Shown here: in pieces, positions 14,864-20,826 of the stretch
How positions within the stretch are numbered: position 1 is the first letter of the stretch
Layout: each line of letters starts with the position of its first letter
Notes under the pieces: generated by a model
Seen by the model: only the letters and a program-made list of their open reading frames with translations
Told to the model about the DNA's origin: nothing
Database searches by the model: none
Source: Polynucleobacter sp. MWH-UH2A
GTDB lineage: Bacteria; Pseudomonadota; Gammaproteobacteria; Burkholderiales; Burkholderiaceae
DNA: 64,000 nucleotides
Reading direction: 5' to 3'
Assembly: GCF_018687195.1 (NCBI RefSeq)
Contig: NZ_CP061321.1
Coordinates: forward strand, 124,001 to 188,000
Made by a program: the position numbers and the translations under genes

Positions 14864-16349
14864 GTCCTCCTTGAACTAAATCAGCTGCTGTAAGTACTGC
14901 ACGAGCCTTTGCTTCCGTTTCTTTCCATTCGGCAGTGGGGTCTGAATCTGCAACAACTCCAGCGCCAGCTTGGGAGTGCAGTACGCCATCCCGAATCACA
15001 CCAGTGCGAATTGCAATCGCAACATCCATATCACCAGAAAAGGAAAGGTAGCCTACTGCGCCACCATAAACACCGCGTTTCACAATTTCCATTTCATCAA
15101 TGATTTCCATCGCGCGAATCTTTGGGGCGCCAGATAGAGTGCCCGCTGGGAAAGTTGCTCTCAACACATCCATATTGCTCATATTGTCTAGAAGATCACC
15201 TTCAACAGAGCTCACAATATGTTGAACATGAGAATACTTTTCAATGGACATTGAATCGGTTACTTTGACAGAGCCAGTTTTTGCAATTCGCCCAACATCA
15301 TTGCGCGCAAGATCGATCAACATGACATGCTCAGCAATTTCTTTAGGATCTGCCAATAGTTCCTTAGCGAGTCTTTCGTCTTCCTCTAGATTTGCGCCAC
15401 GAGGACGAGTGCCAGCAAGCGGACGAATAGTGACGATCTTTTCTGCCGCACGTTTTTCTTGGCGAACCAGAATCTCAGGAGAGGAGCCCACAATCTGGAG
15501 ATCGCCAAAGTCATAAAAATACATATAAGGCGAAGGATTGAGTGAGCGTAAGGCTCTGTACAGAGATAGTGGTGAGTCTGTAAATGGCTTGCTGATGCGT
15601 TGGCCGATAACAACCTGCATGCAGTCGCCGGCCAAAATATATTCTTTGGTTTTGTGAACTGCCCCTTCAAAATCTGCCGCTTTAAATTTTCGGATGAGCT
15701 CAGTTTTTGTACTGGCCAATGCAGGTGGCATGCTCACTGGTTTGCTGAGGCATGCGAGTAATTCCTTAAGACGTGTCTGTGCTTTTTCGTAGCCATCGGC
15801 CATATCAGGATTGGCATAAACAATGAAGTAAATCTTGCCAGCCACGTTATCAATAACGGCCAACTCTTCAGTCAACATGAGTTGTATATCGGGCACACCA
15901 AGCTCATCGGGTAAATTGTGTTTAGCCAAGCGTGACTCGATATAACGAACGGTATCGTAGCCAAAATATCCTGCTAATCCTCCACAGAAACGGGGCAGCC
16001 CTTCTTGTACTGCAACCTTGAATCGCTTGAAATAGGTGTCTACAAAATCTAGTGGGTTATCTGTATTCGTTTCAACTACCTTACAGTCTGTTACTACCTC
16101 ATTTACTGGTTTTAACGGTGTGCCAACAGTGCGAATAATCGTCTTCGCAGGTAGACCAATAAAGGAAAAGCGACCAAAGCGTTCGCCTCCTAAAACCGAC
16201 TCAAGAAGGTAAGTATTTTTACTGCCAAAAGCTTGGCTGAGTTTGACGTAGAGCGATAGCGGTGTTTCTAAATCGGCTAGCACCTCTTTGACAAGGGGAA
16301 TTCGATTGAAGCCCTGCTTTGCTAGGGCATTAAATTCTTCGCGCTGCAT
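14844..16349 (-). CDS. trpE: Anthranilate synthase component I
   Basis: It converts chorismate and ammonia to anthranilate. The 501-residue product has the chorismate-binding core with [31 protein letters not shown] and the C-terminal [12 protein letters not shown]. The N-terminal [18 protein letters not shown] resembles the tryptophan feedback site. It starts within the rpe stop (TAATG), so it is directly coupled to rpe. I saw no leader peptide or attenuator ahead of it, because rpe occupies that place. Confidence 0.96.
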
Positions 16350-17074
16350 TAGGCTTTTCCTGACTTTCCTAATTCAGCACGCATTTCTTTGATGACTTGC
16401 TCGTAGTTATCTTTGCCAAATATTGCTGATCCCGCTACAAATGTGTCGGCGCCTGCTTGAGCAACTTGTGCAATGTTGTCAACTTTGATGCCGCCATCTA
16501 CTTCAAGACGGATCTTGCGACCGGTCTCTGCTTCATGGCGATCGAGACGGGCGCGTACTTGAGTGATTTTTTGCAGAGTGCTTGGGATAAAGGATTGACC
16601 ACCAAATCCAGGGTTCACTGACATCAGCAGTACCAAATCTAATAATTCAAGTGTGTGATCTAAGTGGTCAAGTGGTGTAGCTGGATTTAACACTAGACCA
16701 GCTTGACAGCCTTGATCGCGAATCAAATTTAAGGTGCGATTCGCATGTGGACTTGCTTCTGGATGAAAGCTAATCAAATTTGCACCAGCTTTAGCAAAGT
16801 CCGGAATGATGTGATCTACTGGCTCAACCATGAGATGAACGTCGATCATTGCTGGTAAACCAGCTTTCTTGGCATAAGGACGAATAGCCTCACAAACCAA
16901 GGGGCCAATGGTGAGGTTGGGAACGTAGTGGTTATCCATCACATCAAAGTGAATCCAGTCAGCGCCCGCCACTAAAACATCTTGGACTTCCTTGCCAAGG
17001 CAGGCAAAGTCAGCCGACAAAATGGACGGGGCAATGACAAATTGCGGATTTGGTGATGTTTTTTCGCTTTCCAT
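16349..17074 (-). CDS. rpe: Ribulose-phosphate 3-epimerase
   Basis: The enzyme interconverts ribulose-5-phosphate and xylulose-5-phosphate in the pentose phosphate pathway. The 241-residue TIM barrel shows [13 protein letters not shown], the metal ligands in [17 protein letters not shown] and DVHLMVEP, and VDGGIKVDN. It heads the rpe-trpEGDC run. In many Burkholderiales a phosphoglycolate phosphatase gene (gph) separates rpe from trpE; here it is absent and rpe and trpE share one base. Divergent apaG begins about 50 bases away. Confidence 0.96.
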
Positions 17075-17123
17075 CCCTAGATTCTAGCTTGCAGTTGGCC
17101 TTAGGATGGAGCAGAATTCCAGC

Positions 17124-17498
17124 ATGAATCCTCATGAAATCAGCATTACGGTCAAGACGCAGTACCTTCCAGACCAATCTGACCCAGATAACCGCCAATT
17201 TGCCTTCGCCTATACGATCACCATCCGTAATACGGGGTCGGCTAGTATTCAGCTCATAGCCCGCCATTGGTTCATTACAGACGGGGATAACGATGTTCAG
17301 GAAGTAAAAGGCCTAGGAGTCGTGGGACAACAGCCTTTATTGCGCTCAGGGGAGCATTTTGAGTACACCAGTTGGGCTACCCTCCCAACTCCTGCAGGAA
17401 CTATGCGTGGCGAGTATTTTTGCGTTACGGAGGATGCTCAGTTTTTTCAGGCGCCTATCCCGGAGTTTGCCCTAGTCATGCCCCGCACCTTGCATTAA
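17124..17498 (+). CDS. apaG: ApaG (Co2+/Mg2+ efflux-associated) protein
   Basis: ApaG is a small immunoglobulin-like beta-sandwich protein of unclear biochemical role, historically tied to cobalt and magnesium tolerance. From the ATG at 17124 the product is 124 residues, close to the usual 125, with FAYTITIRNTGSASIQL, ARHWFITD and the conserved G-x-G-x-x-G-x-x-P block (GLGVVGQQP). A start six codons earlier (17106) is also open. It is divergent from rpe and is followed by repeated heptamers at 17504-17540. Confidence 0.93.
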   Translation: MNPHEISITVKTQYLPDQSDPDNRQFAFAYTITIRNTGSASIQLIARHWFITDGDNDVQEVKGLGVVGQQPLLRSGEHFEYTSWATLPTPAGTMRGEYFCVTEDAQFFQAPIPEFALVMPRTLH

Positions 17499-17503
17499 GT
17501 TGC

Positions 17504-17540
17504 CTTACTGTTTGCTGAGCAGTAAGCAGTAAGACTTACT
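17504..17540. repeat. Cluster of CTTACTG / CAGTAAG heptamers, possible bidirectional stop
   Basis: CTTACTG (17504-17510), CAGTAAG (17520-17526), CAGTAAG again (17527-17533) and CTTACT (17535-17540) lie between the apaG stop and the end of the antisense small ORF. They can form hairpins on either strand. A short T-run follows on the plus strand at 17551-17556. The position between two convergent reading frames fits a bidirectional terminator, but no classical T-tract follows directly. Confidence 0.45.
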
Positions 17541-17547
17541 AACTAAA

Positions 17548-17661
17548 TTATTTTTTGCCTTTACCGGTCCATAAGACAATAAACAACAACAACCCTAATG
17601 CAATAGCGCCTTCAATAACAAACAGTAGCATTGGGTATTCATCAAGTAAATTGGCAATCAT
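17548..17661 (-). CDS. Predicted 37-residue single-span membrane microprotein
   Basis: The minus strand encodes ATG to TAA, 37 codons plus stop. The product starts MIANLLDEYP, has one strongly hydrophobic span (about residues 11-31, including GAIALGLLLFIVLW) and ends with a basic tail TGKGKK, the pattern of an inner-membrane microprotein with its C-terminus inside. The ORF fills nearly all the space between apaG and mltA. Its ATG overlaps the mltA ATG as CATG, so the two genes start head to head. No Shine-Dalgarno is visible for either. It is not a frame-shadow of a larger gene, since nothing else codes here. I know no family for it; reality is inferred from composition and placement. Confidence 0.5.
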   Translation of the reverse strand: MIANLLDEYPMLLFVIEGAIALGLLLFIVLWTGKGKK

Positions 17662-18799
17662 GATTTTTAAATATAAATGGCTTCAAGCAAGTGTAGTCGC
17701 AATTTCCATGATTGCTTTACTAACTGCATGTTCAACTCCACCGACACGCGGAACAGGATATCGAGCCAGTGGCTCAGGAACAGCCCCTTCAACATACAGT
17801 TCATCCATTGCAAACTTTAGCGCTGTGTCATGGCAGGTAATTCCAGGGTGGCAGGAAGATGAGTTAGTGCAAGCTTGGCCAGCATGGCTAAAGAGTTGTG
17901 AGGGTTTGCTAAAACGCAATTCACGCAATGGCGAAGTCAATTGGCGACAAGTGTGCGCTCAAGCTTCTAATGTCTCGAGCCGAGATACTCAAGGCATTCG
18001 CAGATATTTTGAAAACAATTTTCAAGCATATGAAGTGCGTAATAACTCTGGAACTGATTCGGGTTTGATCACTGGTTATTACGAACCAGTGATCAATGGT
18101 TCTCAAACAAGGACCAGTACTTTCAGTGTGCCGCTCTATGCTTATCCTGCTGCTTGGAAAAAATCCAAACCAAATTCAGCGCCTACTCGCGCTGAATTAA
18201 TCAGTTCGGGAATGCTAAAAGGTTCTGAAATTGCTTGGGTTCAAGATCCTGTTGCTGCAGCCTTTATGCAAATCCAAGGATCTGGAAAAATTCGTCTTGA
18301 AGACGGTCGCGTGATGCGTTTAGGTTTTGCGGGAACGAATGATCAGCCGTTTAAATCTTTTGCGCAGTGGTTGCTAGACCGAAAAGAAATCACGCGCAGC
18401 GAAGCAACCATGCAGGGGATTTCACAGTGGGCTAAACGCAATCCAGATCGTGTGAATGAGATGCTCAATGCCAATCCCCGCTTTGTTTTCTTTAAAGAAT
18501 TACCCGGCAATGTAGATGCCGATTTGGGCCCCACTGGTGCATTAGGCGTGCCATTAACGGGTGAGCGAAGTATTGCTATTGATTTGCAAGCGATGCCGCT
18601 GGGCGCGCCTGTATTTTTAGCGACGACTAGACCTTTAAGCAATCAACCTCTGCAAAAGCTGGTTTTTGCGCAAGATACTGGCAAAGCCATTGTCGGTGGA
18701 GTGCGAGCCGATTACTATTGGGGATCGGGTGATGTCGCTGGTGAGGCGGCTGGACGCATGAAGCAGAATGGCAGGATGTGGCTGTTGTTACCTCGTTAA
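17660..18799 (+). CDS. mltA: Membrane-bound lytic murein transglycosylase A
   Basis: MltA cleaves peptidoglycan glycan strands to 1,6-anhydromuramyl products at the outer membrane. I choose the ATG at 17660 because it puts a lipoprotein signal at the N-terminus, with a lipobox LTAC about residue 24. A longer frame from 17555 would bury that signal. The mature protein has the MltA domain (GLITGYYEPVINGSQ, IQGSGKIRLEDG) and the C-terminal 3D domain with the catalytic aspartates (AQDTGKAIVGGVRADYYWG). Length about 379 residues. It starts head to head with the 37-codon minus-strand ORF. Confidence 0.93.
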   Translation: MIFKYKWLQASVVAISMIALLTACSTPPTRGTGYRASGSGTAPSTYSSSIANFSAVSWQVIPGWQEDELVQAWPAWLKSCEGLLKRNSRNGEVNWRQVCAQASNVSSRDTQGIRRYFENNFQAYEVRNNSGTDSGLITGYYEPVINGSQTRTSTFSVPLYAYPAAWKKSKPNSAPTRAELISSGMLKGSEIAWVQDPVAAAFMQIQGSGKIRLEDGRVMRLGFAGTNDQPFKSFAQWLLDRKEITRSEATMQGISQWAKRNPDRVNEMLNANPRFVFFKELPGNVDADLGPTGALGVPLTGERSIAIDLQAMPLGAPVFLATTRPLSNQPLQKLVFAQDTGKAIVGGVRADYYWGSGDVAGEAAGRMKQNGRMWLLLPR

Positions 18800-18842
18800 T
18801 ACAGCAATCCAAAAAAGATAAACATCAAGTAGAGAGAAAGCA

Positions 18843-19619
18843 ATGAGCTATCAAACAATTTTGACTGAAGTGGAAGATAAAGTTGCCACCATTACATTGA
18901 ATCGTCCAGAAGTATTAAATGCGCTGAATGATCAATTAATGGATGAGCTGGGCGAAGCCTTGCTTAAGTTTGATGCGGACGACAATATTGGCTGCATCAT
19001 TGTCACCGGCAGTGAAAAGGCATTTGCTGCTGGCGCAGATATTGCTTCAATGGCAAAGCGTAGCTTGCAAGATGTCTATCGCCATAATTTTATTTCTCGC
19101 AATTGGGAGCATATGCAAAAAGTGCGTAAGCCCGTTATTGCGGCAGTATCTGGGTATGCCTTGGGCGGTGGGTGCGAATTAGCAATGATGTGCGACATGA
19201 TTATGGCTGCTGATAATGCGAAATTTGCACAACCTGAAATTAAGCTGGGCATCATTCCTGGGGCTGGCGGAACACAACGTCTTCCCCGTGCCGTATCAAA
19301 ATCAAAGGCCATGGATTTAGCTTTAACAGGTCGAATGATGGATGCTGCTGAAGCCGAACGCGCTGGTCTGGTATCGCGCATATTCCCAAAAGCCGATTTA
19401 TTAAAAGAAGTTAAAGCGATTGCTAAAGATATCGCTGATATGCCTTTGCTAACAACGATGATGGTGAAAGAGGCGGTGAATACAGCCTACGAGACAACTC
19501 TGTCGCAAGGTATTCATTTTGAGCGTCGCTTGTTCCATGCATGCTTTGGAACTAACGATCAAAAAGAAGGCATGGCTGCCTTTATGGAAAAACGCCCCGC
19601 TAAATTTACGAATTCTTAG
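18843..19619 (+). CDS. Enoyl-CoA hydratase (crotonase family)
   Basis: The 258-residue crotonase-fold protein has the oxyanion-hole segments AFAAGADIASM and AVSGYALGGGCELAMMCD and the catalytic glutamate region EIKLGIIPGAGGTQRLPR. Both glutamates expected for hydration of 2-enoyl-CoA (GGGCE and PEIKLG) appear present, so fatty acid or phenylacetate-type beta-oxidation hydratase activity is likely (PaaF/EchA-like). An AGAGAGAAAG-like ribosome site precedes the start. It follows mltA by about 40 bases and is convergent with an M20 amidohydrolase gene. Confidence 0.92.
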   Translation: MSYQTILTEVEDKVATITLNRPEVLNALNDQLMDELGEALLKFDADDNIGCIIVTGSEKAFAAGADIASMAKRSLQDVYRHNFISRNWEHMQKVRKPVIAAVSGYALGGGCELAMMCDMIMAADNAKFAQPEIKLGIIPGAGGTQRLPRAVSKSKAMDLALTGRMMDAAEAERAGLVSRIFPKADLLKEVKAIAKDIADMPLLTTMMVKEAVNTAYETTLSQGIHFERRLFHACFGTNDQKEGMAAFMEKRPAKFTNS

Positions 19620-19629
19620 TTTTTACAGC

Positions 19630-20826
19630 TTAATTCTTCTCTAAAAAGCGTTGAGCTAATTTGACCCAGTAGTTCACACCTACTGGGATCAATGCATCAT
19701 TAAAGTCATAGGATGGGTTATGAAGATGACATGGACCCATGCCATGACCTGTTGAGCGATGATCGCCATCACCATTGCCTAAAAAGACATAGCAACCGGG
19801 TTTCTCTAACAACATAAAGGCAAAGTCTTCGGCACCCATAGTTGGGTCAATAGAAGTATTAACACGCTGTTTGCCTACTAACTCACTCATCACTTGGCTT
19901 GCAAACTCCACTTCATTTGCATGATTGATCAAAGGTGGATAGTTTCTAGAAAAGGTAATTTCAGCTTGACAGTCAAATGCGCTAGCCACGTTATGGGCAA
20001 CCTCTCTTAAGCGTTGCTCAATTAGATCAAGCACCTCAAGGGTAAATGTACGCACGGTGCCGCCAATAAATGCGCTGTCCGGAATGACGTTACTAGTTTC
20101 ACCTGCATGGAATTGCGTTACTGATAGTACTGCAGCATCTACAGGACGCTTATTGCGAGTAATAATGCTTTGCAAAGCTAACACCACTTGCGCGCCAGCT
20201 AGCACTGGATCAGCGCTGTTGTGTGGAAGGGCGGCATGACCGCCTCTGCCGGTGACAGTAATCTCAAACGCATTGCTGGAGGCCATCATTGGTCCTGGTG
20301 TCACACCAAAATCACCTTCAGCCAAGCCAGGCCAGTTATGTAATCCAAAAACAGCATCACAAGGAAATTGCTCAAATAAACCGTCTTTGATCATTTCGCG
20401 AGCGCCAGCACCACCTTCTTCAGCCGGCTGAAAAATAAAAATAACGCTACCTTTGAAATCTCGATGATTTGATAAATATTGCGCAGCTCCTAAGAGCATG
20501 GCAGTGTGCCCATCATGACCACAGGCGTGCATCTTTCCAGGATTACGTGAAGTATGCGCAAAATTATTGTGCTCTTGTAAGGGTAGAGCATCCATGTCAG
20601 CGCGCAAACCAATCATCTTGCCGGAACCTAAGTCTCCATCGAGTCGCCCAACGACGCCCGTTTTACCCATTCCCCGAAATACGCTGATGCCCCAACTGGA
20701 GAGCGCTTCCGCAACGAGATCAGCGGTGCGATTTTCTTCAAAGCGCAACTCAGGGTGCGCATGAATGTTGCGCCGAATTTCTTGTATCTCTGGCGCGGAT
20801 TCAATTATTTCTGGAAGTAAATGCAT
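19630..20826 (-). CDS. M20-family amidohydrolase (hippurate/N-acyl amino acid hydrolase type)
   Basis: The 398-residue metallohydrolase has HACGHDGHTAMLLGAA (metal ligands), PAEEGGAGAREM with the catalytic glutamate, and GRGGHAALPH of the dimerisation domain. These mark the HipO/IAA-amino acid hydrolase branch of M20, which frees amino acids from N-acyl conjugates. The true substrate is not clear. It lies 67 bases downstream of bioD on the same strand and may share its transcript. Confidence 0.9.
   Translation of the reverse strand: MHLLPEIIESAPEIQEIRRNIHAHPELRFEENRTADLVAEALSSWGISVFRGMGKTGVVGRLDGDLGSGKMIGLRADMDALPLQEHNNFAHTSRNPGKMHACGHDGHTAMLLGAAQYLSNHRDFKGSVIFIFQPAEEGGAGAREMIKDGLFEQFPCDAVFGLHNWPGLAEGDFGVTPGPMMASSNAFEITVTGRGGHAALPHNSADPVLAGAQVVLALQSIITRNKRPVDAAVLSVTQFHAGETSNVIPDSAFIGGTVRTFTLEVLDLIEQRLREVAHNVASAFDCQAEITFSRNYPPLINHANEVEFASQVMSELVGKQRVNTSIDPTMGAEDFAFMLLEKPGCYVFLGNGDGDHRSTGHGMGPCHLHNPSYDFNDALIPVGVNYWVKLAQRFLEKN

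Follow-up and report, generated by a model that had tools for sequence, protein, structure and literature searches.

The 37-codon frame on the minus strand at 17548-17661 is almost certainly a gene, and it encodes a small, predicted membrane protein that we refer to here as the microprotein. The window, the whole stretch of DNA analysed, is 64,000 nucleotides long and comes from Polynucleobacter sp. MWH-UH2A. Our computations showed the frame to be coding, conserved and arranged divergently from mltA, with one-sided conservation along the predicted helix and constrained DNA where the two genes overlap. We consider it reasonably probable that the product is an inner-membrane microprotein docking by one helix face on a larger partner, with its gene interlocked with mltA. 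The features of the locus, in window positions, are as follows.

17548-17661, minus strand: microprotein gene, 37 codons from ATG to TAA (matches across the genus and pN/pS).
17659-17662, both strands: CATG common to the microprotein ATG (17661-17659) and the mltA ATG (17660-17662), read from the sequence.
17660-18799, plus strand: mltA, lipoprotein lytic transglycosylase A (PF03562, 3.6e-47; PF06725, the 3D domain, 1.6e-21).
17127-17498, plus strand: apaG, the convergent neighbour (PF04379, 7e-35).
17566-17631, minus strand: predicted transmembrane helix, residues 11-32 (AlphaFold2, A2 alignment and conservation periodicity).
17611-17613, minus strand: codon of the invariant membrane glutamate E17 (glutamate in 51 of 51 aligned members).
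17551-17565, minus strand: basic tail GKGKK, predicted to be cytoplasmic from K/R counts.
17647-17652, plus strand: TAAATT, a putative -10-like element 7 nt ahead of the mltA ATG and within microprotein codons 4-5 (58 of 67 overlap loci).
17670-17675, minus strand: TATATT, a putative -10-like element 8 nt ahead of the microprotein ATG and within mltA codons (TANNNT in 61% of the 67 overlap loci).

The initial annotation had described a minus-strand frame with one hydrophobic span and a basic tail, flanked by apaG and mltA and overlapping the mltA ATG as CATG. All of this was found at exactly these positions: the frame translates to MIANLLDEYPMLLFVIEGAIALGLLLFIVLWTGKGKK, then TAA, with a single hydrophobic span followed by the GKGKK tail, and the Pfam matches identify both flanking genes. 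The microprotein gene is divergent from mltA and convergent with apaG, with 49 nt separating it from the apaG stop at 17498. For apaG there are in-frame ATGs at 17106 and 17127, and the Pfam query began at 17127. Inspection by eye agreed that neither start in the window has a Shine-Dalgarno sequence; a GGAG or GAGG lies directly upstream in some relatives (L064, L081, L083, L097). The description of the gene as antisense to the mltA leader holds only if mltA is transcribed from farther upstream; in its arrangement the gene is divergent, not nested.

The length of the frame proves nothing by itself, because frames this long are common nearby: 59 of at least 25 amino acids overlap the 5 kb around it (15500-20500). 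The feature above chance is its conservation. Among the genomes of the genus, 177 of 186 gave a match at E 1 or better, as did 142 of the 144 of good completeness, and the nine with no match are each in at least 150 contigs. Conservation of the frame in close relatives had been chosen beforehand as the test that could refute the gene, and these matches bear it out. A chance ORF is ruled out by this conservation. For the selection test we kept 67 of 70 genus loci (66 distinct copies), leaving out an offset frame (L064), a premature stop (L078) and a locus with N upstream (L308). The 70 loci were the best-scoring plus 20 divergent or mid-range picks, and since they are related and not randomly drawn the genus conservation counts are inflated. 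Pooled over the 66 distinct copies, pN/pS was 0.17 in the microprotein frame and 0.98, 2.61, 1.10, 0.39 and 2.77 in the five other frames, and the median pairwise dN/dS was 0.049 (1381 of 2145 pairs with usable divergence). The proposed Ka/Ks comparison of aligned copies therefore came out in favour of the gene, and the claim of a real small protein is strongly supported. The frame at 0.39 continues that of mltA upstream across the microprotein gene, and it is open in 82% of the 66 copies. Synonymous sites are constrained in microprotein codons 3-10. The gene is single-copy in the window's own genome, and it can be lost, since one complete genome of the genus (G051, locus L078) carries a premature TGA at W31, a natural loss.

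The predicted helix at residues 11-32 corresponds, in the A2 alignment, to the segment of shorter orthologs that begins at the start Met and runs to WWT. The Burkholderiaceae form has about ten extra N-terminal residues (MxxLLDEYP) ahead of the start point used in other families. AlphaFold2 placed a helix at residues 11-35 and a short one at 2-8, with a mean pLDDT of 87. Members range from 26 residues (L162) and 27 (MWLILLEAGIALTLLIFLVYWTMRGKK, L081) up to 71 (L079), the starts having been picked by eye in some of them. Besides the invariant E17, A21 and T32 are each present in 50 of the 51 aligned members, and the window copy carries the family signature of E17, A21 at +4 and V29-x-W31-T32 ([VI]-x-W-T), a match that is partly by construction, since the A2 alignment includes the window copy. 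Lysines and arginines lie past the helix (at least two in 51 of 51 members, mean 4.0, with some tails trimmed), and only one in total lies ahead of it over the 51 members. Basic residues predict the cytoplasmic side of a membrane protein, the positive-inside rule, so the predicted topology is N-out, C-in.

The periodicity of conservation along the helix has its maximum at 100 degrees per residue, the value of an alpha-helix (permutation p = 0.009, 51 rows). Without the start Met or over a shorter range the peak lay at 97-99 degrees (p 0.009-0.010). Removing the six rows of the window's family gave p 0.012-0.029, and those six rows alone gave p 0.04-0.06. This helical periodicity points to one constrained helix face, with moderate statistical strength. 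In the mechanism we propose, the helix would cross the inner membrane with its N-terminus in the periplasm and its basic tail in the cytoplasm. The conserved face of E17, A21, L25, I28 and T32, with its buried glutamate, may dock on a larger membrane partner or on itself, and once docked the microprotein would tune or stabilise that partner.

The family spreads, by the profiles, over Burkholderiales sensu lato. At family level the search found the microprotein in 223 of 299 genomes, spread over 11 of 25 genera; across the order profile A1 (16 sequences) matched 154 of 399 genomes, and profile A2 (51 sequences) matched 133 of 240 genomes, belonging to 68 of 117 genera. The carriers that can be named include Polynucleobacter, Cupriavidus, Paraburkholderia, Caballeronia, Collimonas, Herbaspirillum, Massilia, Nitrosomonas and Denitromonas. 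The weak tail of the A2 matches includes lookalikes judged by eye to be FixQ-like (L278, L298-L300). Outside the order there were weak matches only, in 16 of 219 genomes of the class; nine of these are FixQ-like by eye, L196 is doubtful and the others besides L195 are unrelated frames. L099 and L195, both weak matches from family f158 outside the order, may be distant relatives; their loci contain phasin-like reading frames. A diverged form with a longer tail (L290-L293, for example ESGFWIFIVEAAVAGGLFVGLIWWVM in L292) has no mltA in the locus and possibly represents a sister family. Searching the plasmid collection by tblastn with a Burkholderia-type ortholog yielded no match. Two assemblies placed in the genus (L232 from G019, and L361) carry a second-type mltA together with a MWLLFLEAG-type microprotein typical of other families, which is probably binning contamination.

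It is tentatively possible that the microprotein serves a respiratory or transport complex of the inner membrane as an accessory subunit, of the FixQ, CydX or AcrZ kind, and that mltA is merely a neighbour with a shared promoter region. Its size, its one helix with a conserved face and its single copy in the window's genome would suit such a subunit, its VWW end weakly resembles FixQ, and in 11 loci its divergent neighbour is an ABC exporter. However, the 51 members gave no convincing match in Pfam or NCBIfam (best E 0.002), and the window copy does not lie beside oxidase genes; the other neighbourhoods were searched for apaG, rpe, trpE, mltA, an enoyl-CoA hydratase, an amidohydrolase-type gene and the ABC exporter. 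The window protein itself had no match below E 0.1 in Pfam, NCBIfam, PHROGs or the PDB, none of those relatives that were compared with the curated cut-offs reached them, and a profile search of the PDB returned matches at E 3 or worse only. No paper on this gene was found in a literature search that was thin in subscription journals.

The initial annotation had placed the microprotein beside a lytic transglycosylase, and this proved to be a conserved association. We picked 142 loci from the listed profile matches, including two from the family of the window, and counted as confident the 132 with a family E of 1e-6 or better, leaving out ten that were weaker or absent. In 115 of these 132 mltA is in the locus, and in all 115 it is divergent from the microprotein (113 pairs by a distance-rule script, with L249 and L260 read separately). 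The same start-to-start position, occupied mostly by mltA, is seen in the window copy. An apaG gene was found in 80 of the 115 loci and not found in 35, and it is convergent with the microprotein in all 89 confident-copy loci where it was found. Loci found through mltA alone carried the microprotein divergent and adjacent in 47 of 80 cases and elsewhere in the locus in none. It is absent from the other 33, one of which (L381) has just 53 nt upstream. Ranked by similarity to the window MltA, these are the top 80 of at least 587 loci, and at least five of the records seem to be genomes already among the first set. The window MltA is 78-80% identical to MltA of Polynucleobacter records. Named mltA loci with no microprotein include Pandoraea, Dechloromonas, Aquaspirillum, Methylophilus and Gallionella, as well as five records of Halomonadaceae type.

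For seventeen confident copies the locus contains no mltA within a range of 1.5 kb; three of these copies are at contig ends and 14 are not. The divergent neighbour is the ABC exporter in 11 of those 14, identified by PF00664 and PF00005 in L259 and by 61-69% identity to the L259 protein in the other ten. These loci (L132, L151, L157, L158, L160, L163, L244, L259, L261, L268 and L289) make the exporter a second recurrent head-to-head partner. Given the 14 copies with no mltA and the 33 mltA loci with no copy, the tie to MltA is not obligatory. Twenty-seven further mltA loci that lacked a profile match (L212-L230, L233-L239 and L241) contained no family-like divergent small membrane ORF, the sole candidate, in L235, not being family-like; five of these loci come from genomes that hold the microprotein elsewhere, and L218 lacks any sequence upstream. 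L231 holds a weak family-like frame (E 0.02) divergent from mltA.

Whether the microprotein is a dedicated partner or regulator of MltA, controlling its synthesis, export, placement or activity, turns on these counts, and we regard such a role as doubtful. The divergent adjacency in every locus with both genes, including the 35 where apaG was not found, speaks for it, as do the 47 mltA-found loci with a copy and the reduced genomes G188, G190, G192 and G198, which match neither mltA nor the microprotein. Against this, PF03562 was not found in three genomes that keep the microprotein (G491, G534 and G511), which makes a direct action on MltA doubtful, and the exporter takes the place of mltA in 11 loci. 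The mltA loci that lack the microprotein, both the 33 and the 27 described above, count against it too. A helix in the inner membrane would also be apart from MltA, whose expected place is the outer membrane. In two of the three genomes (L148 in G534 and L150 in G491) the microprotein follows another reading frame in the same direction and is convergent with apaG; in L150 that frame is a DsbC-type disulfide isomerase by Pfam.

The reading we prefer, a microprotein docked on a larger membrane partner and interlocked with mltA at the level of the genes, draws its second part from the shared start. In 67 of the 70 genus loci a CATG is present from which the mltA frame runs open (L308, among the 67, is mostly N there), the mltA start in this count being taken from that open frame. 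A lipobox-like motif follows the mltA CATG start in 66 of these 67 overlap loci. Microprotein codon 5 is TTA in 63 of 64 copies with leucine at this position, and codon homozygosity is 0.97 at codon 5 versus 0.20-0.34 at the eight leucine codons from codon 12 on. From this pattern it appears that a short conserved DNA element in the first codons of the microprotein probably overlaps the mltA control. A generic sigma-70 promoter scan of 17000-18500 gave zero sites (shuffles average 2.2), and so the two -10-like elements are proposed from conservation only. The common CATG, together with TAAATT inside the microprotein codons, makes the control regions appear interlocked. Because each -10-like element lies in the first codons of the other gene, transcription of both probably begins on the ATG or no more than a few bases from it, and from the sequence we infer leaderless starts for the microprotein and mltA messages. 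In the genus the two genes would then be fired head-to-head from an interlocked control region, each with its putative -10-like element inside the other gene and each leaderless or nearly so.

The initial annotation suggested that the microprotein might regulate or sense at the envelope; a role in cell-wall or envelope upkeep is a guess. A broader proposal is that a family of inner-membrane microproteins found throughout the lineage, each with an ionisable residue buried in the bilayer, might, through a leaderless interlock with mltA, jointly set cell-wall turnover against the state of the inner membrane; we consider this improbable.

Antisense control of mltA, also raised by the initial annotation, is unsupported as the main role because selection acts on the protein and because an Rfam search of 17000-18300 gave no match up to E 1, that is, no described RNA. 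The putative -10-like element 7 nt ahead of the mltA ATG would leave nearly no leader for antisense pairing. Type I toxins are typically of this length, with a single helix and a charged tail, and the microprotein fits that description, but a small hydrophobic peptide silenced by an antisense RNA is very unlikely here; the gene is near-universal in the genus and under strong purifying selection with an invariant glutamate, and we rejected the toxin on its single copy, its conservation and the same Rfam search to E 1, which returned no described antisense RNA. That the frame encodes no protein, and arises only as a side effect of a regulatory or antisense RNA at mltA or of mltA extending farther upstream, is hardly credible: the constrained synonymous sites and the open upstream mltA frame would agree with it, but the microprotein frame has a pN/pS of 0.17 versus 0.39 in the antisense frame, its homologs are recognisable as protein across families and the lipobox-like motif comes after the CATG. 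An RNA-only element is ruled out by the selection on the protein frame and the empty Rfam result.

What is being overlooked here is probably a real but uncharacterised component of the cell envelope. Being short and with no convincing Pfam or NCBIfam match, the microprotein can easily escape annotation and mutant screens. As Paraburkholderia, Cupriavidus, Herbaspirillum and Nitrosomonas share it, one knockout in a tractable strain would inform on many species. The common CATG of the 67 genus loci also offers a clean natural case of two promoters, which we place there from conservation, and two starts in the same few bases.

We file the family as new but of a known kind, the single-helix bacterial microproteins. 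It resembles FixQ/CcoQ, the small subunit of the cbb3 oxidase (PF05545), in having a single helix that ends in IVWW plus basic residues, and profile A2 weakly picks up FixQ-like frames, all but one labelled by eye; one such peptide matches PF05545 at 1.8e-4, under the cut-off. Among the 51 microprotein members a single one matches PF05545, at E 0.035, and the window protein does not. The FixQ-like fragments lack the helix glutamate, unlike the microprotein, and the neighbours in the window are apaG and mltA instead of a cbb3 oxidase operon, so we ruled out membership on the E of 0.035 in 1 of 51 and the different neighbourhood. Elsewhere in the window's own genome, a separate FixQ-like match lies at C1:1557755-1557817. 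CydX has a single membrane helix, and the microprotein shares its size and its one helix. The two differ in the invariant glutamate about one third into the microprotein helix and in its W-T end; no CydX model matched the window protein or appeared among the families listed for the 51 members, and the window copy is not beside oxidase genes. CydX is a 37-residue subunit of the cytochrome bd oxidase that is difficult to recognise by annotation, according to the accessible part of one report (PMC4325964). TimP and other small toxic membrane peptides are likewise small, membrane-directed and overlooked, as far as the available text of their description goes (PMC7667032), whereas the microprotein is single-copy and strongly conserved, with no described RNA family beside the gene. 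AcrZ, a small protein that the accessible part of its report places docked on the membrane domain of AcrB (PMC7267776), showed no sequence relation to the microprotein in the PDB profile search, but its attachment to a large membrane protein provides the model for how the microprotein may work.
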